Shown here: positions 10,351 through 26,997 of the stretch, piece by piece
Position numbering within the stretch: the first letter of the stretch is position 1
How the letters are laid out: every line of letters begins with the position of its first letter
Made by a program: the position numbers and the translations under genes
Notes under the pieces: generated by a model
What the model was told of the DNA's origin: nothing
Databases searched by the model: none
Seen by the model: the letters and a program-made list of their open reading frames with translations, nothing else
NCBI RefSeq assembly: GCF_031085175.1
Contig: NZ_JAVHUY010000027.1
Span: forward strand, 1-64,000
Direction: 5' to 3'
DNA: 64,000 bases
Source of the DNA: Phytohabitans maris
Lineage (GTDB): Bacteria > Actinomycetota > Actinomycetes > Mycobacteriales > Micromonosporaceae

Positions 10351-10370
10351 AGACCGGACGGTCGGTACAG
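10351..10370 (-). promoter_or_regulatory. Island operator A and promoter region
   Basis: On the minus strand CTGTACCGACCGTCCGGTCT, followed directly by AGTGTAACGT, lies upstream of the nine-gene operon. The core ACCGACCGTCCGGT is a quasi-palindrome of TetR-operator type and recurs at 20152, 21662 and 26978. The trailing 10-mer is identical in site C, so the operator probably overlaps or abuts the -10 element, which suits a repressor. The rest of 10258-10471 shows nothing else. Confidence 0.7.
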
Positions 10371-10471
10371 AGCCCGGAACGCACTCTTAATAGTTATCGT
10401 TTTCGATCGAACGAGCTGCCTACCTGGATGGCTACTCGCACCGCCGCTCCCTACGCGCGCTCACGCGGCGG

Positions 10472-11398
10472 TCAGGTGAGGGCGAGGGTGCCGGACGGGA
10501 CCTCCAGGCGGCGGGCCGCGTCCTGGAGGGCGGTGAGCGTGGCGGCGACCGCACTGCCGCGGGCCAGGTCCGGCCAGGTGTACGCGGAGACCCGCCGGCG
10601 CCCGACCGGCTCCACCGGCACCGCCGTCACCTCGGGGTGGCGCATGAACGCGAGCACCAGTGCCGGTACCAGCGCGATCCCCAGCCCGGCCGCGACCAGG
10701 CCCTGCAGCGCCATGTTGTCGTCGGTGGCGCAGGCGATCGACGGGCTGAACCCGGCGTCCTGGCAGACCTTGAGGAACTGCTGGCGGCACCGCGGGCAGC
10801 CGGCGATCCAGGTGGCGCCGGCCAGCTCGGCCAGGGCCACCGACGCGCGCTCGCCGAGCGGGTGGCCGGCCGGCACGAGCAGTACCAGCGGGTCGGCGAG
10901 CAGCGGCACCTCCAGCATCCCGACGTCGGCCGGCACGATCTTGCCGGGCTCGTAGGTGAAGGCGACCACCACGTCGCACCGCGCCTGCCGCAGCGCCTGG
11001 TACGACTGGGGCGGCTCGTCCTCCAGCAGCTCCAGGCGCAGGTGCGGGTGGCGTTCCTTGAGCGCGGCGGCGGCCTTCGGCACCAGGGTGGCGTTGGCGC
11101 TGGGGAAGGCGCAGAGCCGTACCGTGCCCATCTCGGTGGCGATCGCCCGGACCCGCTGCTGCGCCACCGCGACGCCGTCGAGGATCTCGGCCGCGTACCG
11201 GGCCAGCGCCTGCCCCGCCTCGGTCAGCTGCAGGCCGCGGCCGACCCGGGCGAACAGCGGACCGCCCACGCCGCGCTCCAGCGCCCGCATCTGCTGGCTC
11301 ACCGCGGGCTGGGTACAGCGCATCTCCCGGGCCGCCGCCGAGAACGAGCCACTCTCCACGACCTGCCGGAACATGACCAGCTGCCGCATGTCGATCAT
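10472..11398 (-). CDS. LysR family transcriptional regulator
   Basis: A 308-residue LysR regulator with the N-terminal winged helix (FRQVVESGSFSAAAREMRCTQPAVSQQMRALE) and a co-inducer domain beginning around residue 90. The ATG at 11398 is chosen over an internal ATG at 11389. It is divergent from the aminotransferase gene across about 105 bases, the classic arrangement for a LysR protein controlling its neighbour. Much longer reading frames on this strand run through the aminotransferase and are shadows. Confidence 0.9.
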   Translation of the reverse strand: MIDMRQLVMFRQVVESGSFSAAAREMRCTQPAVSQQMRALERGVGGPLFARVGRGLQLTEAGQALARYAAEILDGVAVAQQRVRAIATEMGTVRLCAFPSANATLVPKAAAALKERHPHLRLELLEDEPPQSYQALRQARCDVVVAFTYEPGKIVPADVGMLEVPLLADPLVLLVPAGHPLGERASVALAELAGATWIAGCPRCRQQFLKVCQDAGFSPSIACATDDNMALQGLVAAGLGIALVPALVLAFMRHPEVTAVPVEPVGRRRVSAYTWPDLARGSAVAATLTALQDAARRLEVPSGTLALT

Positions 11399-11420
11399 TG
11401 GCGGATCATAACCAGAACTT

Positions 11421-11439
11421 ACCGGTCCGAAAGATACCC
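11421..11439. promoter_or_regulatory. Degenerate half-operator in LysR/aminotransferase intergenic region
   Basis: ACCGGTCCGAAAGATACCC resembles the right half of operator B with its downstream bases (CCGGTCCAAGATACCC). It is in the 105-base divergent region 11399-11503. It may be a weak site or a shared promoter motif. Confidence 0.25.
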
Positions 11440-11503: not shown

Positions 11504-12784
11504 GTGACCATCGCCGCGACACCACCCGCACACCTGCGCGACGTCCCGTTCATGGGGGTGATCTTCGTGCTGGACGAGGCGGCGAAGGTCGGCTTCGAAC
11601 TGGGCGACCCGGACTGGGTCAACCTCGGCCAGGGACAGCCGGAGGTCGGCCCGCTGCCCGGCGCGCCGGAGCGGATCAGCCGGGTGGACCTCGCGCCGGA
11701 GGACCACGCGTACGGGCCGGTCAGCGGCACCCGGACGGTGCGCGAGGCGGTGGCCGCGTACTACAACGACACGTTCCGCGCGGGCCTGCCCGGCCGGTAC
11801 ACCGCCGACCACGTGGCCATTGTCCAAGGTGGACGGTTGGCGCTCAGCCGGGCGCTGGCCGCGCTCGGCGAGACGAACGTCGGGTACATGCTGCCGGACT
11901 ACTCCGCGTACGAGGACATGCTGAGCCTGCACCTGTCCCGGGTCACGCCGGTACCGGTGCGCACCCGGCCCGAGGAGGGCTTCCGGCTCGGCACGGGCGA
12001 CCTCGCCGGGCTGGTCGAGCGCTCGGGGGTCGGCGCGTTCCTGCTCTCCAACCCGTGCAACCCGACCGGCGCGGTGATCGCCGGCGACCGCCTCGACGCG
12101 CTGGTCCGGTACGCGGGTGAGGCCGGCTGCGCCCTGCTGGTGGACGAGTTCTACAGCCACTACCACTACGCGCCCGGTCCGGACGGGGCCTGGCTGCCCG
12201 CCGCCGGGCCGGTCAGCGCCGCCGCCCACGTGAGCGACCCGGACACCGACGACGTACTGGTCTTCGACGGGCTGACCAAGAACTTCCGGTACCCCGGCTG
12301 GCGCCTGGGCTGGGTGCTCGGGCCGCCCGCCACGATCGCGGTGCTCGACCGGGTCGGCAGCGCCATGGACGGCGGGCCGTCGCGGGTGGTCCAGCGGGCC
12401 GCGCTCGCCGCGCTGGAGCCCGGGTACGCCCGGCGGGAGACCGCGGCGGTGCGCGCGGAGTTCACCCGCAAGCGCAACCACGCCGTGGCCGCCCTGCGCC
12501 GCATGGGCGTGGCGGTCGACGCCGAACCGGCCGGCACGTTCTACGTCTGGGGCTGCCTGGACCGGCTCCCCGCGCCGCTGAACGACGGCATGGAGTTCTT
12601 CCGCCGGGCCCTGGAGTTCAAGGTGATCACCGTTCCCGGGCAGCTGTTCGACGTGAACCCGGGACGCCGGCGCCGCGGCGCGAGCCCGTACGCCTCGTGG
12701 ATGCGCTTCTCCTTCGGCCCCGGGTACGGCGCCCTCACCGAAGGGCTGGAGCGCCTGGAGCGGATGGTCGCGAAGTACGCGTGA
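11504..12784 (+). CDS. Class I/II pyridoxal-phosphate aminotransferase
   Basis: A 426-residue fold-type I aminotransferase. The PLP lysine is in GLTKNFRYPGWRLGW, with NPCNPTGAVI and a C-terminal arginine region (SYASWMRFSFG-like) for carboxylate binding. It moves an amino group between an amino acid or amine-bearing acid and a 2-oxo acid. The GTG at 11504 has GAAGGGG six bases upstream. It is the only plus-strand gene of the island before 21.8 kb and is divergent from the LysR gene. It could remove amino groups freed by the amide-hydrolysing enzymes next door; this is inference. Confidence 0.88.
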   Translation: MTIAATPPAHLRDVPFMGVIFVLDEAAKVGFELGDPDWVNLGQGQPEVGPLPGAPERISRVDLAPEDHAYGPVSGTRTVREAVAAYYNDTFRAGLPGRYTADHVAIVQGGRLALSRALAALGETNVGYMLPDYSAYEDMLSLHLSRVTPVPVRTRPEEGFRLGTGDLAGLVERSGVGAFLLSNPCNPTGAVIAGDRLDALVRYAGEAGCALLVDEFYSHYHYAPGPDGAWLPAAGPVSAAAHVSDPDTDDVLVFDGLTKNFRYPGWRLGWVLGPPATIAVLDRVGSAMDGGPSRVVQRAALAALEPGYARRETAAVRAEFTRKRNHAVAALRRMGVAVDAEPAGTFYVWGCLDRLPAPLNDGMEFFRRALEFKVITVPGQLFDVNPGRRRRGASPYASWMRFSFGPGYGALTEGLERLERMVAKYA

Positions 12785-14132
12785 CGAGCAGGTCCTCCAG
12801 GGCGGCCGCGGCCCGTACCGCGGTCGCCTCGGTGCGGGCCATGAGCTGGACGGCGACCGGCAGGCCGTCGACGAGCCCGCACGGCACGCTCACCGCGGGC
12901 ACGCCGGCGAAGTTGGCCAGGTACGTGTGGTCGGTGATGCCGGCCGGCCGCCAGGTCCAGTCGCCGGCCGGCGGCGCCACGGCGGTGAACCCGACCGTCG
13001 GGCCAGCCAGCACGTCGTACCGGTCGAACGCGTCCGCCAGCCGCTGCACGGCCCGGAAGCGGACGGCGAGGGCCTCGGCGTACTCGGCGCCGGTGACCCG
13101 CCCGCCGGCCTCGAACCGCTGGCGCACGAGCGGCGTCAACTCGGCCGCCGTCCCGGGGTCGGCGAGCAGTTCCCGGCCCTGCAGGGCGTACCGGTCGGCA
13201 TACGTCATGCGGCTGAACGCCGCCTGGCACTCCTCGTCGCCGAGGACCAGTCCCGGGTCGTCGAAGTGCGCGCCGGCCTCGGCGATCCGGGCGGCCGCGG
13301 CCCGTACCGCGGCGACCACCCGGGCGTCCCCGCCCGCCTCGACGCCCGGCGACCACCAGGCCACCCGCAGGTCGCGTACGCCGCGCCGGCGCGGCCAGCG
13401 GAAGGCGGCGTCGCGCCGGCCGGTCGGGTCGCGCGGGTCGTAGCCGGCCAGGACCTCCAGCAGCAGCGCGGCGTCCCGGACGCCGCGGGCGATCGGGCCG
13501 ATGCCGGTGAACCGCAACGACCCGCCGAGCCCGCCGTGCCGCGGTACCAGGCCGTTGCCGGGCAGGATCCCGGTCACGCCGCAGAACGCGGCCGGCAGCC
13601 GGATCGAGCCGGCGCAGTCGCTGCCGAGCGCGAGCGGGGCCAGGCCGGCCGCGACCGCCGCGGCCGACCCGCCACTGGAACCGCCGGGCGAGCGGCCGGT
13701 GTCCCACGGGTTCCGGGTCTCCGGCGCGACCCGGTTGAGCGTCCGCCAGTGCAGCCCGAACTCCGGGGTGTTCGTCTTGCCGAGCACGATCCCGCCGGCG
13801 GCCCGGATCCGCTCGACGCAGGCCGCGTCCTCGTCCGGCACCCGGTCGCGGTAGAGCGCCGAGCCGCCGGTGGTGCGCAGCCCGCGGGTCAGGTACTGGT
13901 CCTTGACCGCGACGGGCAGCCCGTAGAGGGGGCCGGCGCCGCGCCGTTCCAGGGCCCGCGCGTCCGCCAGGGCTCCCTCCCGGTCGACCGTCACGAAGCA
14001 GTGCAGGTCGCCGTCGAGCCGCTCGATCCGGTCCAGGAAGTGGGTGGTCACCTCGACCGGGGAGAGCTCGCCGGCGCGCAGCAGCCGGACCAGCCGCCAC
14101 GCCGGCAGCAGGTGCGGCTCAGCGGCTGGCAC
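12735..14132 (-). CDS. Amidase signature family enzyme
   Basis: A 465-residue amidase with the Ser-cisSer-Lys triad visible: Lys in LPVAVKD, the glycine/serine-rich SPGGSSGGSAAAVAAGLAPLALGSD, then the nucleophile in CAGSIRLPAAFCG. It hydrolyses linear amides, carbamates or aryl amides. It overlaps the end of HyuB by 14 bases, so it completes the FAD-racemase-HyuA-HyuB-amidase operon. Its 3' end overlaps the convergent aminotransferase by 50 bases, leaving no room for a terminator. Confidence 0.9.
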   Translation of the reverse strand: MPAAEPHLLPAWRLVRLLRAGELSPVEVTTHFLDRIERLDGDLHCFVTVDREGALADARALERRGAGPLYGLPVAVKDQYLTRGLRTTGGSALYRDRVPDEDAACVERIRAAGGIVLGKTNTPEFGLHWRTLNRVAPETRNPWDTGRSPGGSSGGSAAAVAAGLAPLALGSDCAGSIRLPAAFCGVTGILPGNGLVPRHGGLGGSLRFTGIGPIARGVRDAALLLEVLAGYDPRDPTGRRDAAFRWPRRRGVRDLRVAWWSPGVEAGGDARVVAAVRAAAARIAEAGAHFDDPGLVLGDEECQAAFSRMTYADRYALQGRELLADPGTAAELTPLVRQRFEAGGRVTGAEYAEALAVRFRAVQRLADAFDRYDVLAGPTVGFTAVAPPAGDWTWRPAGITDHTYLANFAGVPAVSVPCGLVDGLPVAVQLMARTEATAVRAAAALEDLLVTRTSRPSAPGAPALR

Positions 14133-16095
14133 CGAGCCCGCCGGCCGACGCGAGCACGGAGCGGACGTCCTGCTCGGTGTACGGGCCGTCGCCGAGCTTG
14201 GCCAGGCCCTGGAACGCGAAGACCTTGGCGTCGGTGCGTACCGCCGGCGGCAGGCTCCACACCCATTCGGTGACGAGCCGGCTGGCCAGGCCGTTGCGCT
14301 CCTGCCAGTCCCGGCGGGCGGCGCCGAGGTCGACCCAGCCGCGCTCGCCGCGCTCGGCCCGCATCAGGTCGCGCAGCAGGGCGGTGGCGTCCTCGTCGAC
14401 CGCCTCGTCCACGAGGACCACGCCGTAGCATTCGCGGGCCCGTTCGGCGCAGACGAAGCCGTTGACGTGATCGGCGAGGACCCGGGCCGGGTCCCGGTCG
14501 AGCGGGTCGCCGTACCCGCCGCCGCCGGCGCCGAAGATGCTGATCGTCTCGCCGAGCGCGGGCCGGTGCAGGTTGGTCTTGCCGAGGTAGACCGGTTCGC
14601 CGCCGGTGGTGGAGAAGCAGCCGGCGTTGCTGCCGGCGTGCCCGCCGTGCACCCCCCACGGGTTGAACACGTGCCGGTCCTGGCCGCGCATGACGAGCGT
14701 GGCGTTCGGCGCGGTGAGCTCGACGTCGAAGCGGATGCCGAAGCCGCCGCGGAACTGCCCCGGCCCTTCGGAGTCGGGGCGCAGGCCGAAGCGGCGGACC
14801 CGGACCGGCGCCTCCGCCTCCAGCACCTCGACCGGCACGTTCTTCAGGAACGCCACCGGCCGGTCGGCACCGGAGACACCGTCCATCGCCGGTCCGCCGC
14901 CGGAGCCGCCCTGCACCGGGTTGGCGACCACGACCCGGCCGGCGCGGCCGAGGTCCGATGTGGACACGTACGTGATGACGACCTGCCCGGCGCCGGCGGC
15001 CGGTACCGACTCCGGCAGAGCCTGGGCCAGGCAGCCCAGCACCGCGTCGTGCACCTTCAGTACCGTGCCGATCCGCAGCCCGCACGCGCTCGGCTCGGGA
15101 GCGTCCACGACGGACCCCGGCGGCAGGACGAGGTCGACGCAGCGCAGGATGCCGACGTTGAGCCGGATCCCGGGCGCGAACGTACCGACGAAGTTGATGA
15201 TGGCCCGGCACAGGAACGGGTGGTGCGGCTGGCCGCCGGCGGCGAGGTTGAGCGCGGAGCGCACCTTCGGGTCCGAGCCGGTGAAGTCCAGCGTCACCGA
15301 CCCGTCGCCGGCGGTGCGCAGGCAGACCTCGATCTTCACGGGTACGCCGGAGACGTAGTCGTCCTCGAAGAACTCGGTGAACCGGTACTCGCCGGCCGGG
15401 ATCCGCCGCAGCGCACTGCGGGCCAGCCGCTCGGTGGTGTCGATGGTGGCGGACATGGCCCGGGTGACCGCCTCCCGGCCGTACTTGTCGACCAGGCCGA
15501 GCACCCGCTTCTCGCCGGAGTTGACCGCGGCGATCAGCGCCGAGATGTCGCCCCAGTTGTCCACCGGGATCCGGCAGTTGTCCTCGAAGATGTGCCGCAC
15601 GTCCTCGTTGAGCACGCCCCGCTTGTAGAGCTTGACCGGCCGCAGCCGCAGCCCTTCCTGGTAGATCTCGTGGCTGTGGAAGGTGATGCTGCCCGGCACC
15701 GCGCCACCCACGTCGGTGCAGTGGATGAAGCCCCAGGAGAAGCAGACCAGCTCGCCGCCGGCGAAGACCGGCTTGAACACGTACATGTCGTTGAGGTGGG
15801 TGACCATGCCCTCGGTGAAGTACGGGTCGTTGGTGATGAGGATGTCCCCCTCCTCCCACCCGTACCGCGGGTCGACGCCGGCCGCCAGCGGTACGCCCAT
15901 CGCGGTCTTGGCGCCCAGCGAGCCCGGGTAGGCGACCAGGTCACCGTCCACAGTGATCAGACCGGTGCCGAAGTCCTCGGTCTCCTTGACGAACGTGGTG
16001 TACGCGGAGCGCAGCGTCATCGCGGCCATGTCGTCCACGATGGCCTGGAAGAGGTTCGCCAGGACCTCGTCCACGACGGTTGTCTCGATGCCCAT
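14119..16095 (-). CDS. hyuB: Hydantoinase B / oxoprolinase family subunit
   Basis: A 658-residue HyuB-type protein with family motifs TEDFGTGLITVDGDLVAYPG, EGDILITNDPYFTEG, HLNDMYVFKPVFAG and the C-terminal GPGQFRGGFGIRFD. With HyuA it forms ATP-dependent amidohydrolases acting on cyclic amides such as 5-oxoproline, N-methylhydantoin or caprolactam. The ATG at 16095 is chosen because GAGGAGACCG precedes it; codons further upstream lack a site. It follows HyuA by eight bases. Whether the substrate is a hydantoin, lactam or cyclic urea cannot be decided from sequence. Confidence 0.92.
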   Translation of the reverse strand: MGIETTVVDEVLANLFQAIVDDMAAMTLRSAYTTFVKETEDFGTGLITVDGDLVAYPGSLGAKTAMGVPLAAGVDPRYGWEEGDILITNDPYFTEGMVTHLNDMYVFKPVFAGGELVCFSWGFIHCTDVGGAVPGSITFHSHEIYQEGLRLRPVKLYKRGVLNEDVRHIFEDNCRIPVDNWGDISALIAAVNSGEKRVLGLVDKYGREAVTRAMSATIDTTERLARSALRRIPAGEYRFTEFFEDDYVSGVPVKIEVCLRTAGDGSVTLDFTGSDPKVRSALNLAAGGQPHHPFLCRAIINFVGTFAPGIRLNVGILRCVDLVLPPGSVVDAPEPSACGLRIGTVLKVHDAVLGCLAQALPESVPAAGAGQVVITYVSTSDLGRAGRVVVANPVQGGSGGGPAMDGVSGADRPVAFLKNVPVEVLEAEAPVRVRRFGLRPDSEGPGQFRGGFGIRFDVELTAPNATLVMRGQDRHVFNPWGVHGGHAGSNAGCFSTTGGEPVYLGKTNLHRPALGETISIFGAGGGGYGDPLDRDPARVLADHVNGFVCAERARECYGVVLVDEAVDEDATALLRDLMRAERGERGWVDLGAARRDWQERNGLASRLVTEWVWSLPPAVRTDAKVFAFQGLAKLGDGPYTEQDVRSVLASAGGLGASR

Positions 16096-16103
16096 CGGTC
16101 TCC

Positions 16104-18170
16104 TCACTTGACCCGGTGCAGCTGCAGCGAGCCGGACGGGTCGACCTCGGCCCGCCAGCCGGTCGGCACCAGCACCGTGGTGTCCATCTGCTCGACGATC
16201 GCCGGGCCGGTGAGCTCCTGCCCGGCCGCGAGCAGCGCCCGGTCGTACACGGTCGCGGTGACCGTCCCGCCGGCGAGCCGGATCTCCCGCCGGCCCAGCA
16301 CCGGGTCGCCGGTGCGGCCGGTACCGGCCATGTGCACGCTCTCCGGCTTGGCGACGACGCTGACCAGGTGGGCGCGCATCTCCTTGACCCAGATGTCGCT
16401 GCCGCGGCTGGCGTGCCCGAACGTCGCCTCGTGCGCCCGGTGGAACGCCTCGCCGAGCGCGGCCGCGTCACCGTCGACGAGCCACCGCTCCTCGACCGGT
16501 ACGTTGACGTCGAAGCCCTGCCCCTCGTAGCGCATCTCCAGCGACCACGAGACGACGGTCCCGGTGACCGGCAGCGAGTCCTGCTCGTTGGCGAGCCACT
16601 CGGCGGCACGGTCCTTTGTGGACTTCCAGGCGGCGGCGACGTCACCGGGCTCGACGACCGACAGCTTGCGGTAGACCGGCGCGACGAGGTCGCCTTCCAG
16701 GTCGCTGCGGGCCGCCCCGAACGCGCTCAGCGCCCCCGGCGTCGGCGGGATCAGCACCGAGTCGACGTAGATCTCCTCGGCCAGCAGGGCGCCGATCAGC
16801 GGCCCCGCCCCGCCGAAGGCGACCAGCCGGAACGCCGGCGCGTCCACGCCGCGCCGGGCGAGCACCTTGCTGGCCTCGGCGGCCATCATCGCGATGGCGA
16901 TCCGCACCGCGCCGTCGGCGACGTCCTCGACCGAGGCGCCCATCCGGTCGGCGACCCGGGACAGCGCGGTCCGGGCGCCATCCAGCGACAGCCCGATCCG
17001 GCCGCCGAGCCGCTGCTCGTCGCTGAGCCAGCCGGCCAGCAGGAACGCGTCGGAGAGCCCGGGCGTGTGCGTCTGCTTGCCGTAGCAGGCCGGTGCCGGG
17101 TCGGCGCCGAGGCTCTGCGGGCCGACCTTGAGCGTGCCCAGCTCGTCCACCCAGATGATCGAGCCGCCGCCGGCGCCGATCGCCGAGACCGCGATGGTCG
17201 GCACCAGGACCGGCATCTGCGCGATCGTCTCCTCGGCGCTCAGCAGCGGGGAGCCGGCCCGTACCACGCCGATGTCGGCGCTTGTGCCGCCGACGTCGAT
17301 GGTGATCAGGTCGGCCCGGTCCCAGCCGGACTCGGCCGCCGCGCGGGCCGCCCCGGCGACGCCGGCCGCCGGTCCGGACAGCAGCGCGGCCACCGGCCAG
17401 GCGCGGATCGTGTGCGCCCGCTGCATGCCGCCGTTGGAACGGGCGATGGTGGCCTCGTTGGCCAGCCCGTGCCCGCGCATCCCCTCGGCGATCTCGTCCA
17501 GGTACGCCTGCATGATCGGGCGGATCGAGGCGTTGATGACGGTGAGGGTGGCCCGCTCGTACTCGCGGGCCTGCGGCCACACCTCGGAGGAGACCTCCAC
17601 CGGCACGTCCGGGAACTCGCGGCGCAGCACCTCGCGGGCGGCCGCCTCGTGCGCGCCGTTGACGTACGCGTGCAGGAAGCAGACCACGAAGCTCTCGCAG
17701 CCGCGGGCGCGCAGCCGCCGGGCCTGCTCGACCAGCTGCTCCTCGTCCAGCGGGGTGACGGTGCCGCCGTCGAAGCCCATCCGCTCGGTCACCTCGGCGA
17801 CCAGCGACCGGGCCACCAGCGGGGTCGGCCGCTGCGAGTCGTAGCGCAGCGGGTCCGGTACGGCCAGCCGCTGCAGCTCGAACAGGTCGCGGAAGCCGTC
17901 GGTCACCAGTACCCCGATCGCCGGACCGCGCCGCTCGATGACCGCGTTGGTGGCGATGGTGCTGCTGTGGGTGTGCTGCATCGCGGCCAGCCGCTCCGCC
18001 GACAGCCCCAGCTCGCGGACGATCTCGCCGAAGCCGGTGATCGTGCTCCGCGCCGGCCGCGACGGCGTGCTCGGCACCTTGAAGCAGTGCACGGCGCCGG
18101 CCTCGTCGACGACGATGAAGTCGGTGAACGTGCCACCGACGTCCACTCCCAGGGTCAAACCCGATGCCAC
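16104..18170 (-). CDS. hyuA: Hydantoinase A / oxoprolinase family ATPase subunit
   Basis: A 688-residue HyuA-type subunit. The N-terminal LGVDVGGTFTDFIVVD is the phosphate-binding motif of the acetate-kinase-like ATPase fold, followed by the hydantoinase A core (TIDVGGTSADIGVV, GAGGGSIIWVDELGTLKVGPQS). It would phosphorylate the cyclic amide carbonyl, with HyuB completing hydrolysis. The GTG at 18170 is chosen because AAGGAG lies nine bases before it; a GTG at 18188 would place that site inside the gene. It follows the racemase by 40 bases. Confidence 0.92.
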   Translation of the reverse strand: MASGLTLGVDVGGTFTDFIVVDEAGAVHCFKVPSTPSRPARSTITGFGEIVRELGLSAERLAAMQHTHSSTIATNAVIERRGPAIGVLVTDGFRDLFELQRLAVPDPLRYDSQRPTPLVARSLVAEVTERMGFDGGTVTPLDEEQLVEQARRLRARGCESFVVCFLHAYVNGAHEAAAREVLRREFPDVPVEVSSEVWPQAREYERATLTVINASIRPIMQAYLDEIAEGMRGHGLANEATIARSNGGMQRAHTIRAWPVAALLSGPAAGVAGAARAAAESGWDRADLITIDVGGTSADIGVVRAGSPLLSAEETIAQMPVLVPTIAVSAIGAGGGSIIWVDELGTLKVGPQSLGADPAPACYGKQTHTPGLSDAFLLAGWLSDEQRLGGRIGLSLDGARTALSRVADRMGASVEDVADGAVRIAIAMMAAEASKVLARRGVDAPAFRLVAFGGAGPLIGALLAEEIYVDSVLIPPTPGALSAFGAARSDLEGDLVAPVYRKLSVVEPGDVAAAWKSTKDRAAEWLANEQDSLPVTGTVVSWSLEMRYEGQGFDVNVPVEERWLVDGDAAALGEAFHRAHEATFGHASRGSDIWVKEMRAHLVSVVAKPESVHMAGTGRTGDPVLGRREIRLAGGTVTATVYDRALLAAGQELTGPAIVEQMDTTVLVPTGWRAEVDPSGSLQLHRVK

Positions 18171-18210
18171 TGCGGCGCTCTCCTTCACTCAGTCCTACTG
18201 GCCGGCCGGA

Positions 18211-18969: not shown

Positions 18970-20109
18970 TCAGGACGTGGCGTTGCGGCGCCAGAGCACC
19001 GTGCGCTGGCCGGGCGTGCGGCGCACGTCCCAGGGCGACAGGTCGAGTGTCGGGTCTGGACGGTCCACGATGGACCTCGCGAGGGCCTCGGCGACCGGCG
19101 GGCCGTGCATCGCGCCGTGCCCGGTGAAGGCGAGCGCCCAGAGCCCTTCCTCCACCTTGCCGACGTAGGGGTGGCCGTCGCCGCCGAGCGCCGGGTACGC
19201 GGTCAGCTCGTGGACGATCTTCAGGTCGGCCAGGCCGGGCGCGCGGTCGGCCGCCGCCTCGACGAAGAGCTCGACGAGGTGGTTGTGATCGCGGGCGGCG
19301 GGGTTGCGGCCGAGCATCGCGAGCATCAGCGCCTCCCCCTCGCGCTCGATCGCCATCCCGGTGTCGATGTCGATGACGGTCGGGATCCGGGAGCCGGCGA
19401 AGGCCGGCTCGGTCAGCACCGCGCGGTGCGTGGCCTTGTAGATGTCCAGGTCCACGCCGAACGGCTGGAGCAGCTCGCGGTTGCCCCACCCGGCGACGGC
19501 GACCACCCGCTGGGCGACGATCTCGTCCGGCCCGTACGCGTGCCAGCCGTCCGGCTTGCGCTCCAGCCGGGTGACCGGCCACCGCTTCTGGATCTTGACG
19601 CCCAGCTCGCGGCCGGCGTGGATGAACGCGCTCAGCCCGTCCATCGGCATCACGTGCCCGTCCTTGGGGGTCCAGGATCCGCAGATCAGCCCCTCCGGGT
19701 CGATGAACGGCACCAGCTCGGCGACCTCGTCCGGCTCCAGCAGCTGGACGTCCGGCAGGCCCATGGAGATCTGCAGGTCGGCCTGCTCGCGCAGGATGGC
19801 GGCGGTCTGCGCGGTGCCGGTGAGCAGCAGGTACCCGTCCTCGTGGAACAGGCAGGGCGCGCCGAGGCGCTCCTCGACGTTCTTCCAGAAGTCGAGGCCG
19901 CGGCGCGAGCACTCGATCTCCAGCGGGTGCCCGAAGCCCTGCTGGCGGACGTTGCCCATCGAGCCGCCGGTGGCGCCGGAGCCGTGCTCCTCGGCCTCGA
20001 CCACCAGTACGTCGGTGACCCCCTCCCGGGCCAGGTAGTAGGCCACGCCGACGCCGTTCAGGCCGCCGCCGACGACGAGCGTGTCGACGCTGCGCGCAGG
20101 TGTGCTCAC
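18970..20109 (-). CDS. FAD-dependent amino acid/amine oxidoreductase (DAO family)
   Basis: A 379-residue DAO-type flavoprotein: Rossmann motif VVGGGLNGVGVAYYLAREG, then EAEEHGSGATGGSMGNVRQQG typical of sarcosine oxidase beta and glycine oxidase relatives, and the C-terminal LWALAFTGHGAMHGPPVAEALA FAD-binding region. Substrates of the family are secondary or N-methyl amino acids and related compounds. A flavoprotein of similar type has been linked to thioether cleavage in thiodipropionate degraders, so C-S cleavage is an alternative. The GTG at 20109 follows GGGGAG. First gene of its operon, 42 bases after operator B. Confidence 0.85.
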   Translation of the reverse strand: MSTPARSVDTLVVGGGLNGVGVAYYLAREGVTDVLVVEAEEHGSGATGGSMGNVRQQGFGHPLEIECSRRGLDFWKNVEERLGAPCLFHEDGYLLLTGTAQTAAILREQADLQISMGLPDVQLLEPDEVAELVPFIDPEGLICGSWTPKDGHVMPMDGLSAFIHAGRELGVKIQKRWPVTRLERKPDGWHAYGPDEIVAQRVVAVAGWGNRELLQPFGVDLDIYKATHRAVLTEPAFAGSRIPTVIDIDTGMAIEREGEALMLAMLGRNPAARDHNHLVELFVEAAADRAPGLADLKIVHELTAYPALGGDGHPYVGKVEEGLWALAFTGHGAMHGPPVAEALARSIVDRPDPTLDLSPWDVRRTPGQRTVLWRRNATS

Positions 20110-20151
20110 GCTGGCTCCCCTTCTCCGTTACGGGTGTCCCGAGGGTATCTT

Positions 20152-20171
20152 GGACCGGACGGTCGGTACAG
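20152..20171 (-). promoter_or_regulatory. Island operator B
   Basis: On the minus strand CTGTACCGACCGTCCGGTCC, 19 of 20 bases identical to operator A, between the cupin stop (20177) and the FAD gene start (20109). AAGATACCC follows directly and may hold the -10. It should control the FAD-racemase-HyuA-HyuB-amidase operon. Confidence 0.7.
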
Positions 20172-20176
20172 AGCGG

Positions 20177-20719
20177 TCACCGTAAAGCCGGCCGGACCGG
20201 CAGGTCGTAGCGGCGGCGGATGCTCGAGCCGACGCGGGAGATGTCCGCGCCGTACACGTGGATGGAGACGGCCGTACCGTCGCCGGCGTTGCGCACCTCG
20301 TGGATGTCGCCGGGCGGGGCGAACCCGCAGACGCTCCCGGCCGGGTTCTCGACCACGCCGTCCTCCACCAGGTGCGCCCGGCCGTCCCGCTCGGCCAGCC
20401 GGTACCGCACCTCGGACTCGACGCCGTCCACCACGCCGACCACGCACCAGCAGAGGTGGTCGTGGATCGGCGTGGCCTGCCCGGGGCGCCAGACCAGCGC
20501 GACGACCGAGAAGAGCCCGTCCGGCTCGACGTGCAGGATGTGCTGCGTGTAGCCGTCCGGGTCGCCGGCGAGCTGCGCCGGCGTCAGCACGTCGCGGGTC
20601 GGCAGGTGTGCCCGCAGCGCCTCGCCGACCAGCGACGCGGTCCGCTCCGGGGGGCAGACCCGGCCGGCCGCCGCCCGCACGTGCTCGACCAGCGTCGTCA
20701 ACCGCTGTGCAGCCGCCAT
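20177..20719 (-). CDS. Thiol dioxygenase, cupin, 3-mercaptopropionate dioxygenase type
   Basis: A 180-residue cysteine-dioxygenase-family cupin. The iron ligands are HDH (His86, His88) and His140 in GDIHEV; Ser152, His154 and Tyr156 in SIHVY form the conserved Ser-His-Tyr triad. Residue 59 in YTQHILH is glutamine, the hallmark of mercaptopropionate dioxygenases, where cysteine dioxygenases have arginine. It would oxidise a thiol acid with O2 to a sulfinate. It lies 124 bases downstream of the TetR gene in the same direction and is probably cotranscribed. It implies that thiol sulfur is released during catabolism. Confidence 0.85.
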   Translation of the reverse strand: MAAAQRLTTLVEHVRAAAGRVCPPERTASLVGEALRAHLPTRDVLTPAQLAGDPDGYTQHILHVEPDGLFSVVALVWRPGQATPIHDHLCWCVVGVVDGVESEVRYRLAERDGRAHLVEDGVVENPAGSVCGFAPPGDIHEVRNAGDGTAVSIHVYGADISRVGSSIRRRYDLPVRPALR

Positions 20720-20843: not shown

Positions 20844-21497
20844 CTACTCCACCGGGTGCAGGCCCTTGACCAGCACGTCGACGAACAGGTCGGCGGTCTG
20901 CTCGGGGCTGAGCGGGCCGCCCGGCCGAAACCACAGGTAGGCGTAGTTGAACATCCCGAGGATGCCCTTGACCAGGACCGGTGAGACGTCTACGCCCGAC
21001 CCCTCCGGCACCACCGCGCGGACGGTGCGCAGCCAGTACTGCTCGAACTGGTCGCGGGCGGCCACGATCTCGGTGCGCCGGTCGCCGGAGAGCGCCTGGA
21101 ACTCCTTGAAGAACACCGACCACTCGTTCAGGTGGTCGCTGATGTTGCGCAGCAGGGCGCGCCCGAGCACCCGCAGCGTCTCGGCGGGCGGCAGGCCGCG
21201 GCCGACGATCTCGGCGGCCTGGGCGTTCATGTCGTCGATCTGCACCCGGCAGATCTCGTACAGGATCGACTCCTTGCCGTCCATGTGGTGGTACAGCGAC
21301 CCGCGGCTCAGCCTGGTCGCGGTGGAGAGCTCGGCCATGCCGGTGGCGTGGTATCCGTTGCGCGCGAAAAGCTCGGCGGAGGTGCGCAGGATCCGCTCCC
21401 GCGCCGGCAGCACCGCGCCGTCACCGGCCGCCCGGTCGCCCGCCTGCCCCGCGGCGGCCGGCGCCGCCTCCTTCGTCGGTCGGCTCGCTGCCAACAC
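20844..21497 (-). CDS. TetR family regulator, probable repressor of the island
   Basis: A 217-residue TetR protein: helix-turn-helix at about residues 35-80 (RILRTSAELFARNGYHATGMAELSTATRLSRGSLYHHM), then an all-helical ligand domain like that of regulators of acyl-CoA metabolism. The start is GTG at 21497, or TTG at 21494, which has better spacing from AAGGAGG. It is divergent from the solute-binding gene across a 316-base region holding operator C, and it is the only TetR gene in the window, so it is the best candidate to bind the four operators. An acyl-CoA effector would be typical. Confidence 0.88.
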   Translation of the reverse strand: MLAASRPTKEAAPAAAGQAGDRAAGDGAVLPARERILRTSAELFARNGYHATGMAELSTATRLSRGSLYHHMDGKESILYEICRVQIDDMNAQAAEIVGRGLPPAETLRVLGRALLRNISDHLNEWSVFFKEFQALSGDRRTEIVAARDQFEQYWLRTVRAVVPEGSGVDVSPVLVKGILGMFNYAYLWFRPGGPLSPEQTADLFVDVLVKGLHPVE

Positions 21498-21661: not shown

Positions 21662-21681
21662 CTGTACCGAACGTCCGGTCC
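21662..21681 (+). promoter_or_regulatory. Island operator C in divergent TetR/binding-protein promoter region
   Basis: CTGTACCGAACGTCCGGTCC followed by AGTGTAACGT matches operator A and its downstream bases at 28 of 30 positions. It lies in the 316-base divergent region 21498-21813 and could repress both TetR-cupin and the binding protein. The remainder of that region shows no other motif. Confidence 0.7.
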
Positions 21682-21813
21682 AGTGTAACGTCCCCTCCAC
21701 GCCCGCACGGGGCGTGGTCGGCGGCGCCGCCCACGCCCGGCGTCCGGCGCCCGGCCGGCGCCCAGATGTGTCATTTGCGATACCCCTGGTCTGCACAAGA
21801 AGGGCTTTTTCAT

Positions 21814-23388
21814 ATGCGTCGACTTCATACGCGTCGACTCTGGGGAGCCGCACTGGCCGTGGCACTGGCCGCTGCTGGATGCACCACCGGCTCGGACTCG
21901 GGCGGCTCCGGAGGCACCGACACGCTCACCATCGCGGTGGGCGCCGACATCGACACGTTCGACCCGCAGGCGCAGGTCTCGGCGAGCGTCATCCAGCGCC
22001 TGCAGCAGGTCGTCGAGTCGCTCACCACGCTCGGCGCGGACGGCACGCTCAAGCCGCTGCTGGCCACCGAGTGGAAGGCCGCGCCGGACGGCATGAGCTG
22101 GGACTTCACCCTGCGACAGGGGGTGACGTTCTCGGACGGCACGCCGCTGAACGCCGCGGCCGTGAAGTTCAGCCTGGACCGGGTCAACAGCCCGGAGACC
22201 CTCAAGGCCCGCCCGGACGCGCTGGTCGTCATCAAGAGCACCGAAGTCGTCGACGACACGCACGTACGGATCAACCTGAAGTCCAAGTACCCGGCCCTGC
22301 CCCGGGCGCTGTCCCTGCCGGTCGGCGGCATCCTCTCGCCGGACGCCACGCGCAAGGCGCCGAACAGCGTCCAGCAGGTCGTCGCCCCGGTCGGCACCGG
22401 ACCGTACGCCTTCAAGGAGAACGTGAAGGGCGACCACCTCACGCTCACCGCCAACCAGAGCTACTGGGGCGACAAGCCCACCTTCGCCACCCAGATCTGG
22501 AAGGTGGTGCCGGAGGCGACCAGCCGGCTCGCGCTGCTCAAGTCGAACGGCGCCGACATCATCCTCGACCCGCCCGGCACCGACCTGGCCAGCCTGCGCG
22601 AGGACGACTCGGTCGAGCTGACCCTGGTCAACGCCACCAACGCGGTGCAGCTGGTGATGAAGACGCAGAGCAAGCAGGCACCCCAGCTGGCCGACCCGAG
22701 GGTACGGCAGGCGCTCAGCTACGCCATCAACCGCGAGCAGATCGTCAAGGTGCTCGCCTACGGGGCCGCCGAGCCGCTCAAGTCACCGGTGGTGCCGTGG
22801 ACGTTCGGGGCGTGCGACGCGAACAACTACGCGTACGACCCGGCCAAGGCCAAGCAGCTGCTCGCCGAGGCCGGTGCCACCAACCTCAAGCTGCGGATGG
22901 GCGCGCCGAACGGCCGCTACCTCAACGACTACAAGATCGGTGAGGCGGTCGCCGGTGACCTTCGGGCCGCCGGCGTACAGGTCGACCTGGCCAACCCGAC
23001 CGACTTCCCGACCTACCTGGCGACCGTCTACACGCCGCCGCAGGAGGCCACGCTCGACGTGTACATCATGGGTCTGGGCTCGGTGTTCCTCGACGGTGGG
23101 CACGCGCTGCGCAACTACCTGAAGGCGAACTTCCCGCCGACCGGCTACAACGGCGGCTACTACGACAGCCCGGAGTTCGACCAGATGGTCAACACCCTCA
23201 ACCAGGAGGGCGACGAGACGGTACGCGCCGGCCTGATCTGCGACGCGCAGAAGAAGCTGATGCGGGACGCGCCGGCCGCGTTCCTCTACGCGCTGCAGGT
23301 GCCGGTGGCCGTCTCCGCGGAGCTGACCGGCCTCATCGGGCACCCCGCCGGCATGATCAACCCGTCCTGGGTGAAGCCGAAGAGCTGA
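21814..23388 (+). CDS. Solute-binding lipoprotein of oligopeptide-type ABC importer
   Basis: A 524-residue SBP_bac_5 protein. The signal peptide ends in a lipobox (ALAAAGC, Cys23), so the mature protein is lipid-anchored outside the membrane. The family start GGTDTLTIAVGADIDTFDPQ and the internal ATEWKAAPDGMSWDFTLRQGVTFSDG are typical. The ATG at 21814 is chosen over an upstream ATG because it yields a normal signal peptide. No permease adjoins it. The only orphan permease/ATPase set under the same operator is at 1106-4998, so the two halves of one importer are probably 17 kb apart. Confidence 0.92.
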   Translation: MRRLHTRRLWGAALAVALAAAGCTTGSDSGGSGGTDTLTIAVGADIDTFDPQAQVSASVIQRLQQVVESLTTLGADGTLKPLLATEWKAAPDGMSWDFTLRQGVTFSDGTPLNAAAVKFSLDRVNSPETLKARPDALVVIKSTEVVDDTHVRINLKSKYPALPRALSLPVGGILSPDATRKAPNSVQQVVAPVGTGPYAFKENVKGDHLTLTANQSYWGDKPTFATQIWKVVPEATSRLALLKSNGADIILDPPGTDLASLREDDSVELTLVNATNAVQLVMKTQSKQAPQLADPRVRQALSYAINREQIVKVLAYGAAEPLKSPVVPWTFGACDANNYAYDPAKAKQLLAEAGATNLKLRMGAPNGRYLNDYKIGEAVAGDLRAAGVQVDLANPTDFPTYLATVYTPPQEATLDVYIMGLGSVFLDGGHALRNYLKANFPPTGYNGGYYDSPEFDQMVNTLNQEGDETVRAGLICDAQKKLMRDAPAAFLYALQVPVAVSAELTGLIGHPAGMINPSWVKPKS

Positions 23389-23437: not shown

Positions 23438-24574
23438 CTACCCCTCGAAGACCTCGGCGCGGATCTCGTCGGTGTGCTCGCCGACATCCGGCGGCCGGCG
23501 CCAGACCCGGCCCGGCGTGGCGGAGAGCTTCGCCGGTACGCCCACCATCGGCGCGTCCGGGTCGAGCCGCGCGATCATGCCGCGCTCCTCGGCCAGCCGC
23601 ATCGCCTCCGCGAACGTGGCGACGCGCGTGGCGCAGACATCCGCCCCGTCCAGCAGCACGACCGCCTCGGCCGAGCCGCGCGCCCCGAACCAACCGACCA
23701 GGTGGTCGGCGACCGCCCGCGCCGCTTGCGGGTCGCGGTGCGATCCGGCCAGGTCCGGGCGGCCGGTCAGCCGCATCAGCTCGTCGTAGAACCACGGCTC
23801 CAGCGCGCCGAGCGCCACCCAGCGGCCGTCGGCGCAGCGGTACACGCCGTACTGCGGCAGCTGTCCGGAGAGGAAGAAGTGGCCGGCCCGCAGGTCGGCG
23901 CCGCGGGCGAAGTGCAGGCTGGCCGCGTGGGTCAGCAGCGACAGCGTGCCGTCGACCATCGCCAGGTCGATGTGCTGCCCGGCGCCGGAGCGGTCCCGGT
24001 GGAACAGCGCGACCATGATGGCGTACGCGGCCATCAGCCCGCCGCCGGCGAAGTCGGCCAGCAGGTTGAGCGGGATGACCGGCCGCCCGTCCTGGTCGGC
24101 GATCAGCTCCAGCACCCCGGTCTGCGCCAGGTAGTTGATGTCGTGGCCGGCCGCGAGCGCCCCCGGCCCGTCCTGCCCGGCACCGGTCAGCGAGCAGTAC
24201 ACCAGCCGCGGGTTGAGCTCGCGGCAGCGCGGCCAGTCGATGCCGAGCCGCGCCGCGACCCCCGGCCGGAACCCCTCCAGCAGCACGTCGGCGCCGGCGA
24301 CCAGGCGGTGCATCACGGCTCGGTCCACATCGGACTTGAGGTCGAGCACGACGCTGCGCTTGTTGCGCCGCAGCCCGGCCATCCGGCTCACCTCGGGGTC
24401 GCGCTCCAGCTCCCAGTACACGTTGGTCTCGGCGCCCCGGGTCGACCCGCCGGGCGGCTCGACGAGGATCACGTCGGCGCCGAAGTCGGCCAGCAGCATC
24501 GAGCAGTACGGCCCGGGAGCCTGGCGGGACAGGTCGAGCACCCGTACCCCGGCCAGCGCGGCCCCGGTGCTCAC
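23438..24574 (-). CDS. CaiB/BaiF family: alpha-methylacyl-CoA racemase-like or CoA transferase
   Basis: A 378-residue class III CoA-transferase-family protein. GHDINYLAQTGVL (His144) and NLLADFAGGG (Asp174) are exactly 30 residues apart, as are the catalytic His126 and Asp156 of alpha-methylacyl-CoA racemase, so racemase activity is likely. CoA transferase activity remains an alternative because homologues transfer CoA to 3-sulfinopropionate or carnitine. The GTG at 24574 overlaps the thiolase stop as GTGA. Last gene of the acyl-CoA dehydrogenase operon. Confidence 0.85.
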   Translation of the reverse strand: MSTGAALAGVRVLDLSRQAPGPYCSMLLADFGADVILVEPPGGSTRGAETNVYWELERDPEVSRMAGLRRNKRSVVLDLKSDVDRAVMHRLVAGADVLLEGFRPGVAARLGIDWPRCRELNPRLVYCSLTGAGQDGPGALAAGHDINYLAQTGVLELIADQDGRPVIPLNLLADFAGGGLMAAYAIMVALFHRDRSGAGQHIDLAMVDGTLSLLTHAASLHFARGADLRAGHFFLSGQLPQYGVYRCADGRWVALGALEPWFYDELMRLTGRPDLAGSHRDPQAARAVADHLVGWFGARGSAEAVVLLDGADVCATRVATFAEAMRLAEERGMIARLDPDAPMVGVPAKLSATPGRVWRRPPDVGEHTDEIRAEVFEG

Positions 24575-25749
24575 AGCCGCTCCAGGACGAGCGCGTTGGC
24601 CAGGCCGCCGGCCTCGCACATGGTCTGCAGCCCGTACCGGCCGCCGCCGCGCTCCAGCCCGCCGAGCAGCGTGGCCAGCAGCCGGGTGCCCGAGGCGCCG
24701 AGCGGGTGGCCGAGCGCGATCGCCCCGCCGCAGGGGTTGAGCCGCTCGTCCGGTACGCCGAACTCGCGCTGCCAGGCCAGCGGCACGCAGGCGAACGCCT
24801 CGTTGACCTCGAACACGTCGACGTCGGCGGCGTCCAGCCCGGCCTTGGCCAGCACCTTGCGGGTGGCCGGCAGGACCGCGGTCAGCATCAGCAGCGGGTC
24901 GTCGCCGGCGACCGCGGTGGCGTGCACCCGGGCGCGTGGACGCAGTCCCAGCCGGTCCGCCGCCCGCTCGCTCACCACCAGCGCCGCCGAGGCGCCGTCG
25001 GTCAGCGGCGAGGAGTTGCCGGCGGTGACGTGCCAGCCGATCTCCGGGAACCGCTCACCGGCCGCCTCGTCGTGGAAGGCCGGCTTCAGCCCGGCGAGCG
25101 CCTCGGTGGTCACGCCGGCCCGGATCGTCTCGTCCCGGGTCACCGTGGCGTCCCCGGTCGTGACCGGCACGAGCTCGCCGTTGAACCAGCCCCGCTCCTG
25201 GGCCAGCGCCGCCCGGGCGTGCGAACGGGCCGCGTACGCGTCCATCGCCGCCCGGTCCAGCCCGGACCGCGCGGTGACCAGCTCGGCCGAGACGCCCTGC
25301 CGGACCAGCCCTTCCGGGTAGCGGCGGGCCAGTCCGGGGCCGTACGGGTCGCGGTCGAGCCAGTTGGACCACATCGGCGCTCGGCTCATCGACTCCACGC
25401 CGCAGGCGATCACCACGTCCTGGGCGCCGCTGGCGACCGCGTGCGCGGCGAAGTGGACCGCCTGCTGGCTCGACCCGCACTGCCGGTCCACTGTGGTCGC
25501 CGGCACGGCCTGCGGGAACCCGGCGGCGAGCACGGCCTGCCGGGTGACGTTCATCGCCTGCTCCCCCGCCTGGGTGACGCAGCCGCCGATCACGTCGTCC
25601 ACATCGGACGGATCGAGGCCGGTCCGGGCCACCAGCGCGGTGAGCGCGGCGGCGAGCAGGTCCACCGGGTGTACGCCGTTCAAGGCCCCGCCCGGCCGGC
25701 CCTTGCCGGAGGGGGTGCGGATCGCGTCGACGACCAGCGCCTCAGCCAT
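24571..25749 (-). CDS. Acetyl-CoA acetyltransferase / 3-ketoacyl-CoA thiolase
   Basis: A 392-residue thiolase with nucleophilic Cys91 in DRQCGSSQQ, His348 in GGAIALGHPLGASG and the second catalytic Cys378 in MCEAGGLANALV. It cleaves 3-ketoacyl-CoA with CoA, shortening the chain by two carbons. It overlaps the acyl-CoA dehydrogenase stop by eight bases. With the ligase, dehydrogenase and HSD10-type SDR it gives most of a beta-oxidation cycle; no enoyl-CoA hydratase is seen in the window. Confidence 0.93.
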   Translation of the reverse strand: MAEALVVDAIRTPSGKGRPGGALNGVHPVDLLAAALTALVARTGLDPSDVDDVIGGCVTQAGEQAMNVTRQAVLAAGFPQAVPATTVDRQCGSSQQAVHFAAHAVASGAQDVVIACGVESMSRAPMWSNWLDRDPYGPGLARRYPEGLVRQGVSAELVTARSGLDRAAMDAYAARSHARAALAQERGWFNGELVPVTTGDATVTRDETIRAGVTTEALAGLKPAFHDEAAGERFPEIGWHVTAGNSSPLTDGASAALVVSERAADRLGLRPRARVHATAVAGDDPLLMLTAVLPATRKVLAKAGLDAADVDVFEVNEAFACVPLAWQREFGVPDERLNPCGGAIALGHPLGASGTRLLATLLGGLERGGGRYGLQTMCEAGGLANALVLERL

Positions 25750-26899
25750 GCCGCGCCCCCGCGAACGCGTCCGCCCACTCGTACCCGCCGACCAGCTCGC
25801 GGGCGGCGACCAGGTACTGGATGGTCGGTGGCCCCTCCTCCAGCCAGTTGAGCCGGGCGTCCCGGTAGAGCCGCTCGATCGGCGTGCGCCGGGTGTACCC
25901 GATCCCGCCGTGCACCAGCAGCGCCCGGTCGGTGACCCGGCCGACCGCCTCCAGCCCGAAGAGCTTGACCAGCGACGCCTCCGTCGGGATGCGCCGCCCG
26001 GCGTCCCACTTGCGGGCCGCGTCGAGCAGCATGTGCCGCAGCGCGTACACGTCGGTGGCCATCTCGGCCAGGTAGCGCTGGACGGCCTGCCGGGCGGCGA
26101 TCGGCTTGCCGAAGGTGACCCGCCGGCGGGCGTGCTCCAGGCTCAGGTCGAGCGCCCGCTGCGCGGTGCCGAGCGAACTCGCCGCGATGAAGACCCGGCT
26201 GATCTCCAGCGCCCGCTCCAGGTGGGCCTGCCCCTCCCCCTCGGCGCCGACCAGGTTGGCGGCCGGCACCCGGACCCCGTCGAAGGTGAGCACGCCGTGC
26301 TCGCCGCCCTTGCAGCCCATCGTCTCCGGCAGCGGCTCGATGGTCAGGCCGGGCCGGTCCCGCTCCACGAGCAGCGCGGAGACCTCGGTCGGCGAGGTCC
26401 GTGCGAAGACGATGAAGTGCGAGGCGAGGTCCGAGTTGGTGATCAGCCACTTCGTGCCGTTCAGGACGTAGTCGCCGCCGTCGCGGGTCGCGGTCGTGCC
26501 CAGGTCGGCGCCGGTGCCGTGGTCCGGCTCGGTCAGCGCGAACGCCACCGACGCCGCCCCGGTCACCGCGCCGGGCAGGATCGCCGCGCGCTGCTCCGGC
26601 GAGCCGATCTCCGACAGCGCGTGGGCGAACGAGTTGTGCACGTGCACCAGCACCCGGATCCCGCCCTGCACCTTGGCGAACTCGGCGATGATCGGCAGGT
26701 ACTGCTCGATGGTCAGCCCGCTGCCGCCGTACTCCGCAGGCACCAGCAGGCCGAGCGCGCCCATGTCGCGGAGCATCGGCATCAGCCGCTCCATCGGCAG
26801 CGACTCGTCGTCTTCGATCTCGGCTTCGAGCGGGTCGAGGTCACGCCAGATCGCCTCGAACACGTCCCGCTGGAACTTCTCGTACTCCTGTGGGTCCAT
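25742..26899 (-). CDS. Acyl-CoA dehydrogenase
   Basis: A 385-residue flavoprotein of the acyl-CoA dehydrogenase family: AFALTEPDHGTGAD and KWLITNSDLA for FAD and substrate, RRVTFGKPIAARQAVQ, and a C-terminal LEEGPPTIQYLV whose Glu355 aligns with the catalytic base. It introduces the 2,3-double bond of an acyl-CoA. Related enzymes act as desulfinases on 3-sulfinopropionyl-CoA, but the retained glutamate favours normal dehydrogenation. The ATG at 26899 opens the operon, 79 bases downstream of operator D; upstream codons in the same frame run into the promoter region. Confidence 0.9.
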   Translation of the reverse strand: MDPQEYEKFQRDVFEAIWRDLDPLEAEIEDDESLPMERLMPMLRDMGALGLLVPAEYGGSGLTIEQYLPIIAEFAKVQGGIRVLVHVHNSFAHALSEIGSPEQRAAILPGAVTGAASVAFALTEPDHGTGADLGTTATRDGGDYVLNGTKWLITNSDLASHFIVFARTSPTEVSALLVERDRPGLTIEPLPETMGCKGGEHGVLTFDGVRVPAANLVGAEGEGQAHLERALEISRVFIAASSLGTAQRALDLSLEHARRRVTFGKPIAARQAVQRYLAEMATDVYALRHMLLDAARKWDAGRRIPTEASLVKLFGLEAVGRVTDRALLVHGGIGYTRRTPIERLYRDARLNWLEEGPPTIQYLVAARELVGGYEWADAFAGARHG

Positions 26900-26977
26900 C
26901 GGCCCTCCGTCCGTCGGCACCGTCCCGGTCCGGCGCGCAGGGGACGGGATGCGCCCGGTGCGACGCACACTAACAGA

Positions 26978-26997
26978 TTGGACCGACCGTCCGGTCT
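26978..26997. promoter_or_regulatory. Island operator D
   Basis: TTGGACCGACCGTCCGGTCT, 18 of 20 bases identical to operator A, lies upstream of the acyl-CoA dehydrogenase operon. Here it is inverted relative to the controlled gene, and TTAGTGT follows in the direction of transcription. Its edge overlaps the stop codon of the upstream LysR gene. Confidence 0.65.

Follow-up and report, generated by a model that had tools for sequence, protein, structure and literature searches.

The window analysed here is a stretch of 64,000 nucleotides from Phytohabitans maris (assembly GCF_031085175.1, contig NZ_JAVHUY010000027.1, positions 1 to 64,000), and it carries four near-identical copies of a 20-nucleotide sequence, GTACCGAMCGTCCGGTCYAG, termed sites A to D. 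Site A precedes a nine-gene operon running leftward from 10323 and encoding, in order, the SDR-family protein SDR1, an acyl-CoA ligase, a BisC-family reductase, an OsmC-like protein, OppB, OppC, OppD, OppF and a second SDR-family protein, SDR2. Operon B runs leftward from 20109 with genes for a DAO-family FAD enzyme, a racemase, HyuA, HyuB and an amidase, and operon D runs leftward from 26968 with an acyl-CoA dehydrogenase (ACAD), a thiolase and a family III CoA-transferase. Site C is placed between the divergent genes of a TetR protein and a solute-binding protein (SBP). Coordinates are collected in Table 1; gene starts are inferred, and the family scans cover selected open reading frames (ORFs) of the clusters. 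With a probability of about 0.82, the TetR protein of gene 20844-21497 is interpreted from sequence comparison as a local repressor that controls its own expression, with sites A to D as its operators before four operons of a catabolic regulon.

The four sites were located within two bases of the positions 10351, 20152, 21662 and 26978 given in a preliminary description of the same DNA. Their agreement, put there at 18-19 of 20 bases, is indeed close to identity, with an actual pairwise range of 17-19 of 20. In a scan of the source genome (9,870,637 bases, or 9.87 Mb, 97.3% complete) using the reversed motif as control, the 20-mer occurs in 11 places at up to three mismatches compared with 4 in all for the control. 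These comprise two exact copies and two with one mismatch, which are sites A to D and are confined to 16.7 kb of the window, none with two mismatches and seven with three, and the estimate from base composition is 0.010 places per genome at up to one mismatch. The exact core ACCGACCGTCCGGT has three copies genome-wide, every one in the window, and the looser core ACCGANCGTCCGGT has five exact copies, four of them in the window. A search of the window only, with the 14-mer at up to three mismatches, gave 37 places compared with 24.5 expected. The earlier proposal, in which about 20 genes form a single regulon under the local TetR protein, agrees with the genome scan. A wider regulon was also considered and is rejected for the 20-mer, which has no further genomic copies at up to two mismatches.

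The arrangement is conserved in a genome from another genus of the family (G248). At E ≤ 1e-38 the TetR protein is matched in 2 of 354 sampled family genomes, the source genome and G248, and the G248 protein, 53-56% identical to that of the window, is located in an orthologous cluster. The G248 contig has orthologs of SDR1, ligase, BisC, OsmC, OppB, OppC, OppD, OppF, SDR2, DAO, SBP, CoA-transferase, thiolase and ACAD with tblastn identities of 45-82% (OppF and OppD 71-72%, with OppF at 71%, and OppC 83% in a separate comparison). For the racemase, the thiol dioxygenase and both LysR genes of the window, 56 kb of G248 gave no tblastn match at E ≤ 1e-15. Sites exact or with one mismatch to ACCGANCGTCCGGT are found at 15482, 24200, 27091, 31729 and 33707 of contig C70, each upstream of an operon start. 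The operons behind the five sites are isochorismatase-SDR1-hydantoinase-DAO2-ligase-BisC-OsmC-OppBCDF, SBP, ACAD-thiolase-CoA-transferase-TetR, a pair of PuuE-like genes, and DAO-SDR2; a sixth match, at 30080, falls within the CoA-transferase gene. Genome-wide, G248 has 73 places at up to one mismatch from ACCGANCGTCCGGT compared with 26 for the reversed control per 9.2 Mb, giving a background per 18 kb of 0.05 (control) or 0.14 (all matches). The same operator class thus stands upstream of the orthologous SBP, ACAD-thiolase-CoA-transferase-TetR, DAO-SDR2 and BisC/Opp operons, as a single regulon would have it. At the four operons common to both genomes (BisC/Opp, SBP, ACAD and DAO) the orientation of the site is kept, being reversed at ACAD in both, and the bases flanking the G248 sites differ from those of the window. 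The binding protein at 21814 had earlier been linked with permeases 17 kb away, and this link is supported by G248, since its SBP and permease genes are also far apart and each has a site. A chance occurrence, or a mobile or structural repeat family devoid of regulatory role, would agree with the near-identity of the 20-mers, as in a young repeat; it is very improbable given that there are four genomic copies only, each preceding an operon and none at two mismatches, and that the same palindrome lies upstream of orthologous genes in another genus with different flanks.

The TetR protein scores above cut-off for both TetR_N (43.8 bits) and TetR_C_24 (90.6 bits), and its closest solved structure is PDB entry 3vpr (E 6.5e-26), with others next, KstR2 included. 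Entry 3vpr is taken here to be PfmR (TTHB023) of Thermus thermophilus HB8, and a TetR protein encoded on the HB8 plasmid, presumably TTHB023 itself, is 33% identical to that of the window by tblastn. Both genomes place a site at the repressor gene or its operon: site C is upstream of TetR, and the G248 TetR gene ends the ACAD operon, which bears a site. In PMC7022988, PfmR has the predicted consensus TACCGACCGNTNGGTN and a natural site, CCGACCGTTCGGTAAG, with sites at fatty-acid genes, and a later in-vitro consensus is looser than the predicted one. Sites A, B, C and D agree with the predicted consensus at 12, 12, 11 and 11 of 13 specified bases, respectively. The likeness to PfmR lies in the closest solved structure and the consensus, whereas its target genes are other than those of the window and the identity is limited to the 33% above. 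PaaR of Burkholderia cenocepacia represses several operons through the operator ACCGACCGGTCGGTT and is released by a pathway intermediate, 'compound II', taken here as phenylacetyl-CoA (PMC9493321). It differs from the window system in its pathway, that of phenylacetate, in its taxon and in a perfectly palindromic operator core. Sites A to D belong to the operator class ACCGAnCGnnCGGT of PaaR and PfmR, and on these sequence grounds the TetR protein and its operator are members of this known class, an ordinary switch.

The sites could instead be operators of another regulator, namely one of the LysR proteins (genes 10472-11395 and 26996-27910) or a TetR protein encoded elsewhere in the genome. 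Two LysR genes do lie within the stretch, and the 3' end of gene 26996-27910 overlaps site D, where the half-site order is opposite relative to its own operon. LysR sites usually follow T-N11-A, whereas the sites here are of the PaaR/PfmR type; one of them, site C, is found upstream of the gene for TetR, and the LysR genes go unmatched in the G248 stretch in which sites and TetR are kept, making another regulator quite unlikely.

The sites have a regular position with respect to -10-like elements, defined as TANNNT hexamers in the 20 nt after the core read toward the downstream gene. Site A has TAACGT 6 nt past the core and a second hexamer, TAGTGT, 1 nt past it; site B has TACCCT at 6 nt, site C in the SBP direction TAACGT at 6 nt, and site D in the ACAD direction TAGTGT at 9 nt with the half-sites reversed. 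In G248 the hexamer is TACGGT at 6 nt for the BisC operon site and TATGCT at 7 nt for the ACAD operon site. The exact 6-nt spacing is common to A, B, C (SBP side) and the G248 BisC operon, and several of these promoters probably have the operator in the spacer that separates their -35 and -10 regions. The preliminary description also had sites A and C sharing the next ten bases, AGTGTAACGT. They do share them; since the ten bases hold a -10-like TANNNT at the fixed 6-nt spacing, and site B has a hexamer of different sequence in the same position, they are probably promoter rather than operator sequence, and their reading as an extended operator is rejected.

More distant relatives show the operator type in part. 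Genomes G698 and G452 (one genus; TetR 43-45% identical) have a perfect palindrome, TACCGACCGATCGGTA, in the stretch that separates a TetR gene from a divergent thiolase gene; the likely reading is an acyl-CoA regulon whose regulator, of this TetR subfamily, controls its own gene. A site two mismatches from the window core is present on the Rhodococcus plasmids of R. koreensis and JS3073 (TetR 42-43%), and in R. koreensis it is placed between two divergent genes adjoining TetR; this signal is weak, each 40.5-kb locus having four such two-mismatch matches. Acyl-CoA-type genes match near TetR in 7 of 7 relative loci, making an acyl-CoA effector a natural guess. A scan of genome contigs for more whole clusters gave five weak TetR relatives (28-34%). 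On the R. pyridinivorans plasmid pRJH2 (L034:19977-21193), two tandem TetR genes belonging to this subfamily, 49% and 45% identical to that of the window, lie beside a 74% identical ACAD gene.

Several observations weigh against the regulon proposed here. The looser core ACCGANCGTCCGGT at up to one mismatch is frequent in the source genome (65 places compared with 23 for the control); this short core alone is not specific, and flanking bases would therefore supply part of the specificity. The fifth exact copy of the looser core, ACCGATCGTCCGGT, is outside the window at C5:10107-10120 of the source genome (G000). No TANNNT lies within 20 nt of site C in the TetR direction, nor at three of the five G248 promoter sites. 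The G248 HyuAB-amidase genes, 31-36% identical to those of the window, are without their own site within one mismatch, and no enoyl-CoA hydratase turned up among the ORFs scanned. The loci of G734 and two other Rhodococcus plasmids, with TetR proteins of 46-49% identity beside ACAD of 73-75%, lack ACCGANCGTCCGGT within one mismatch. A looser palindrome has eight matches at one mismatch in these three loci, none pointing to a promoter: those of both plasmids overlap annotated genes, and of those in G734 one falls within ACAD and two where no gene is annotated.

Table 1. Candidate operators and genes of the proposed regulon (window positions)
Feature	Position	Strand	Remarks
Operator A	10349..10368	-	GTACCGACCGTCCGGTCTAG, 0 mismatch; precedes nine-gene operon
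Operator B	20150..20169	-	GTACCGACCGTCCGGTCCAA, 1 mismatch; precedes DAO-racemase-HyuA-HyuB-amidase
Operator C	21664..21683	+	GTACCGAACGTCCGGTCCAG, 0 mismatch; between divergent TetR and SBP genes
Operator D	26980..26999	+	GGACCGACCGTCCGGTCTAG, 1 mismatch; precedes ACAD-thiolase-CoA-transferase
TetR repressor (TetR_N, TetR_C_24)	20844..21497	-	probable regulator; ortholog in G248
SDR1, first gene of operon A	9448..10323	-	true start probably internal
AMP-forming acyl-CoA ligase, 536 aa	7853..9463	-	start inferred
BisC/TorA/DorA-family molybdopterin S/N-oxide reductase, 777 aa	5523..7856	-	no twin-arginine leader seen at the N terminus
OsmC-like protein	5027..5557	-	sole matches at E ≤ 1e-20 among sampled phylum/order genomes: this genome and G248
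OppB-type permease	4078..4998	-	
OppC-type permease	3141..4085	-	
OppD-type ATPase	2137..3138	-	start inferred
OppF-type ATPase	1106..2095	-	start inferred
SDR2, last gene of operon A	286..1068	-	G248 ortholog
DAO-family FAD oxidoreductase, sarcosine oxidase / dimethylglycine dehydrogenase-like	18970..20109	-	
Asp/Glu/hydantoin racemase family	18211..18957	-	
HyuA, ATP-dependent hydantoinase / oxoprolinase family	16104..18188	-	
HyuB	14119..16107	-	
Amidase-signature hydrolase	12735..14132	-	
Thiol dioxygenase	20177..20719	-	between TetR and site B; closest solved relatives 3-mercaptopropionate dioxygenases
Family-5 solute-binding lipoprotein (SBP)	21814..23388	+	lipobox LAAAGC read by eye
Acyl-CoA dehydrogenase (ACAD)	25742..26968	-	82% identical in G248
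Thiolase	24571..25749	-	G248 ortholog
Family III CoA-transferase	23438..24619	-	G248 ortholog

In the proposed mechanism a TetR dimer would bind the imperfect palindrome ACCGAnCGTCCGGT, and the bound repressor would exclude RNA polymerase, since three of the four sites are followed closely by a -10-like element. The inducer would be a pathway intermediate, most likely an acyl-CoA from the operon's own ligase, and its binding to the repressor would open all four operons together. Uptake would then be provided by the SBP and the OppBCDF importer, acyl activation and beta-oxidation by the AMP ligase, ACAD, SDRs, thiolase and CoA-transferase, S/N-oxide reduction by the BisC-family enzyme, and ring opening with removal of a carbamoyl or amide group by HyuAB, the racemase and the amidase, the freed amine being oxidized by the DAO-family enzyme. 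The thiol dioxygenase gene may share a transcript with TetR. As a switch the system is of a familiar type; it sets a clean limit around about 20 genes, most of which recur together with their operators in a second genus, and the gene set suggests a catabolic route that was matched to no named pathway.

The reductase of operon A scores 1043 bits with TIGR00509 (bisC_fam), above the cut-off of 1017.55, and resembles E. coli BisC in being of the cytoplasmic type, with no twin-arginine leader in its N terminus, MTSRLPHSSHWGAF, as read by eye from the likely start. It is about equally distant from E. coli BisC (41.9% identity, 561 BLASTP bits), TorA (41.8%, 572 bits) and TorZ (40.7%, 599 bits), and its sequence leaves the substrate unnamed. 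Among solved structures a DMSO reductase, 1e18, is nearest; rows L046 and L051, cut in the wrong orientation or frame, were disregarded in the reductase tree. The acyl-CoA ligase falls under the cut-off of every NCBIfam model among the best 25 of 105. Both HyuAB subunits fall in the family of N-methylhydantoinases, 5-oxoprolinases and caprolactamases and differ from caprolactamase CapAB in their scores with NF050156 and NF050157 (477.1 and 218.7 bits), which fall far short of the cut-off of 1000. The G248 BisC operon also holds an isochorismatase-family hydrolase and a D-hydantoinase-like enzyme, the latter with 360.7 bits for TIGR02033, short of the cut-off of 393.25. Behind the G248 site at 31729 are two adjacent PuuE-allantoinase-like genes (C70:31856-33760), with no counterpart recognised among the window ORFs scanned; their scores with TIGR03212, 110.9 and 93.4 bits, do not reach the 424.6 cut-off. 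As the G248 ring enzymes and the window HyuAB are all under the equivalog cut-offs, the type of reaction is only suggested.

Both versions of the cluster share the importer, acyl activation, beta-oxidation, S/N-oxide reduction, OsmC and DAO. The ring-opening role is filled differently, by HyuAB, amidase and racemase in the window and by hydantoinase-like, isochorismatase-family, PuuE-like and HyuAB-amidase proteins in G248. With the ring openers swapped around a constant core, the substrate would appear to be a cyclic ureide or amide to which an acyl chain is attached, and the best reading of the locus is an inducible catabolic regulon for such a compound. Biotin combines a cyclic urea with a C5 acid side chain and contains a sulfur able to form sulfoxides, and since its structure fits every part common to both clusters, an argument from fit, biotin or biotin sulfoxide is tentatively put forward as a substrate that would have less than even odds. 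It would be imported, its sulfoxide reduced, the valerate chain shortened as CoA thioesters and the ring opened by hydantoinase-type enzymes, with an inducer of the biotinyl-CoA type and disposal of the sulfur by the thiol dioxygenase in the window genome. Against biotin, BisC is no nearer to the reductase than TorA and TorZ are, and the nearest solved relative is a DMSO reductase; no biotin-specific protein turned up among the cluster ORFs scanned. Bacterial biotin catabolism was reportedly worked out chemically in the 1960s and is said to be known only from metabolites. Among the papers listed in a literature search, no bacterial biotin catabolic gene cluster was found by title and abstract, a weak negative with most subscription journals outside its coverage, and the parts of PMC11089781, PMC9123166 and PMC3781023 that were available describe no bacterial biotin catabolic genes. 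Were biotin the substrate, genes would be assigned to bacterial biotin breakdown.

The same regulon might act on a simple hydantoin, a dihydropyrimidine or a creatinine-type compound, with the acyl-CoA genes serving the carbon tail only. HyuA is nearest to N-methylhydantoinase and DAO to sarcosine oxidase, a racemase is present, the creatinine route employs such an enzyme set, and G248 has its D-hydantoinase-like enzyme together with enzymes weakly like RutB and biuret hydrolase. Such a substrate leaves unexplained the S/N-oxide reductase, ligase, ACAD, thiolase and CoA-transferase, although few genes of the two clusters are better conserved than these (69-82%), and is possible at rather low odds. 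An organosulfur acid of the thiodipropionate or 3-mercaptopropionate type, or a glutathione-derived S-conjugate, would account for the thiol dioxygenase, which is nearest to 3-mercaptopropionate dioxygenase. It is in keeping with a weak match of ACAD to 3-sulfinopropionyl-CoA desulfinase (186.6 bits, cut-off 600), with matches of the SBP, permease and ATPase to glutathione transporter models, all under cut-off, and with 5-oxoprolinase being among the HyuA relatives. An organosulfur substrate is doubtful nonetheless, as the dioxygenase is unmatched in the G248 stretch at the threshold given above, the hydantoinase-type enzymes would be left idle, and no gamma-glutamyltransferase was found among the ORFs scanned. 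The preferred substrate class for the TetR regulon remains the cyclic ureide or amide bearing a side chain of acyl type.

The OsmC-like protein is matched in 1 of 396 sampled phylum genomes, itself only, at E ≤ 1e-25 and in 2 of 397 sampled order genomes at E ≤ 1e-20, and relatives of 26.8-31.3% identity occur in 8 plasmid records. BisC relatives are frequent, with 51 of 394 sampled class genomes at E ≤ 1e-240. Of 51 places other than its own, 29 were covered with 1.5-kb flanks; these gave one weak OppD piece and nine ACAD relatives of 31.6-35%, and no other cluster gene at E ≤ 1e-6. The base composition across the window has no obvious deviating stretch, with 69.8-76.5% G+C in 4-kb steps. Between the LysR gene 10472-11395 and the amidase gene lies about 1.3 kb (11396-12734) in which two ORFs were tested and gave no Pfam match. 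The other LysR gene, 26996-27910, adjoins a divergent gene for a PF03601 (Cons_hypoth698) membrane protein, the two occupying the stretch 26996-28979.

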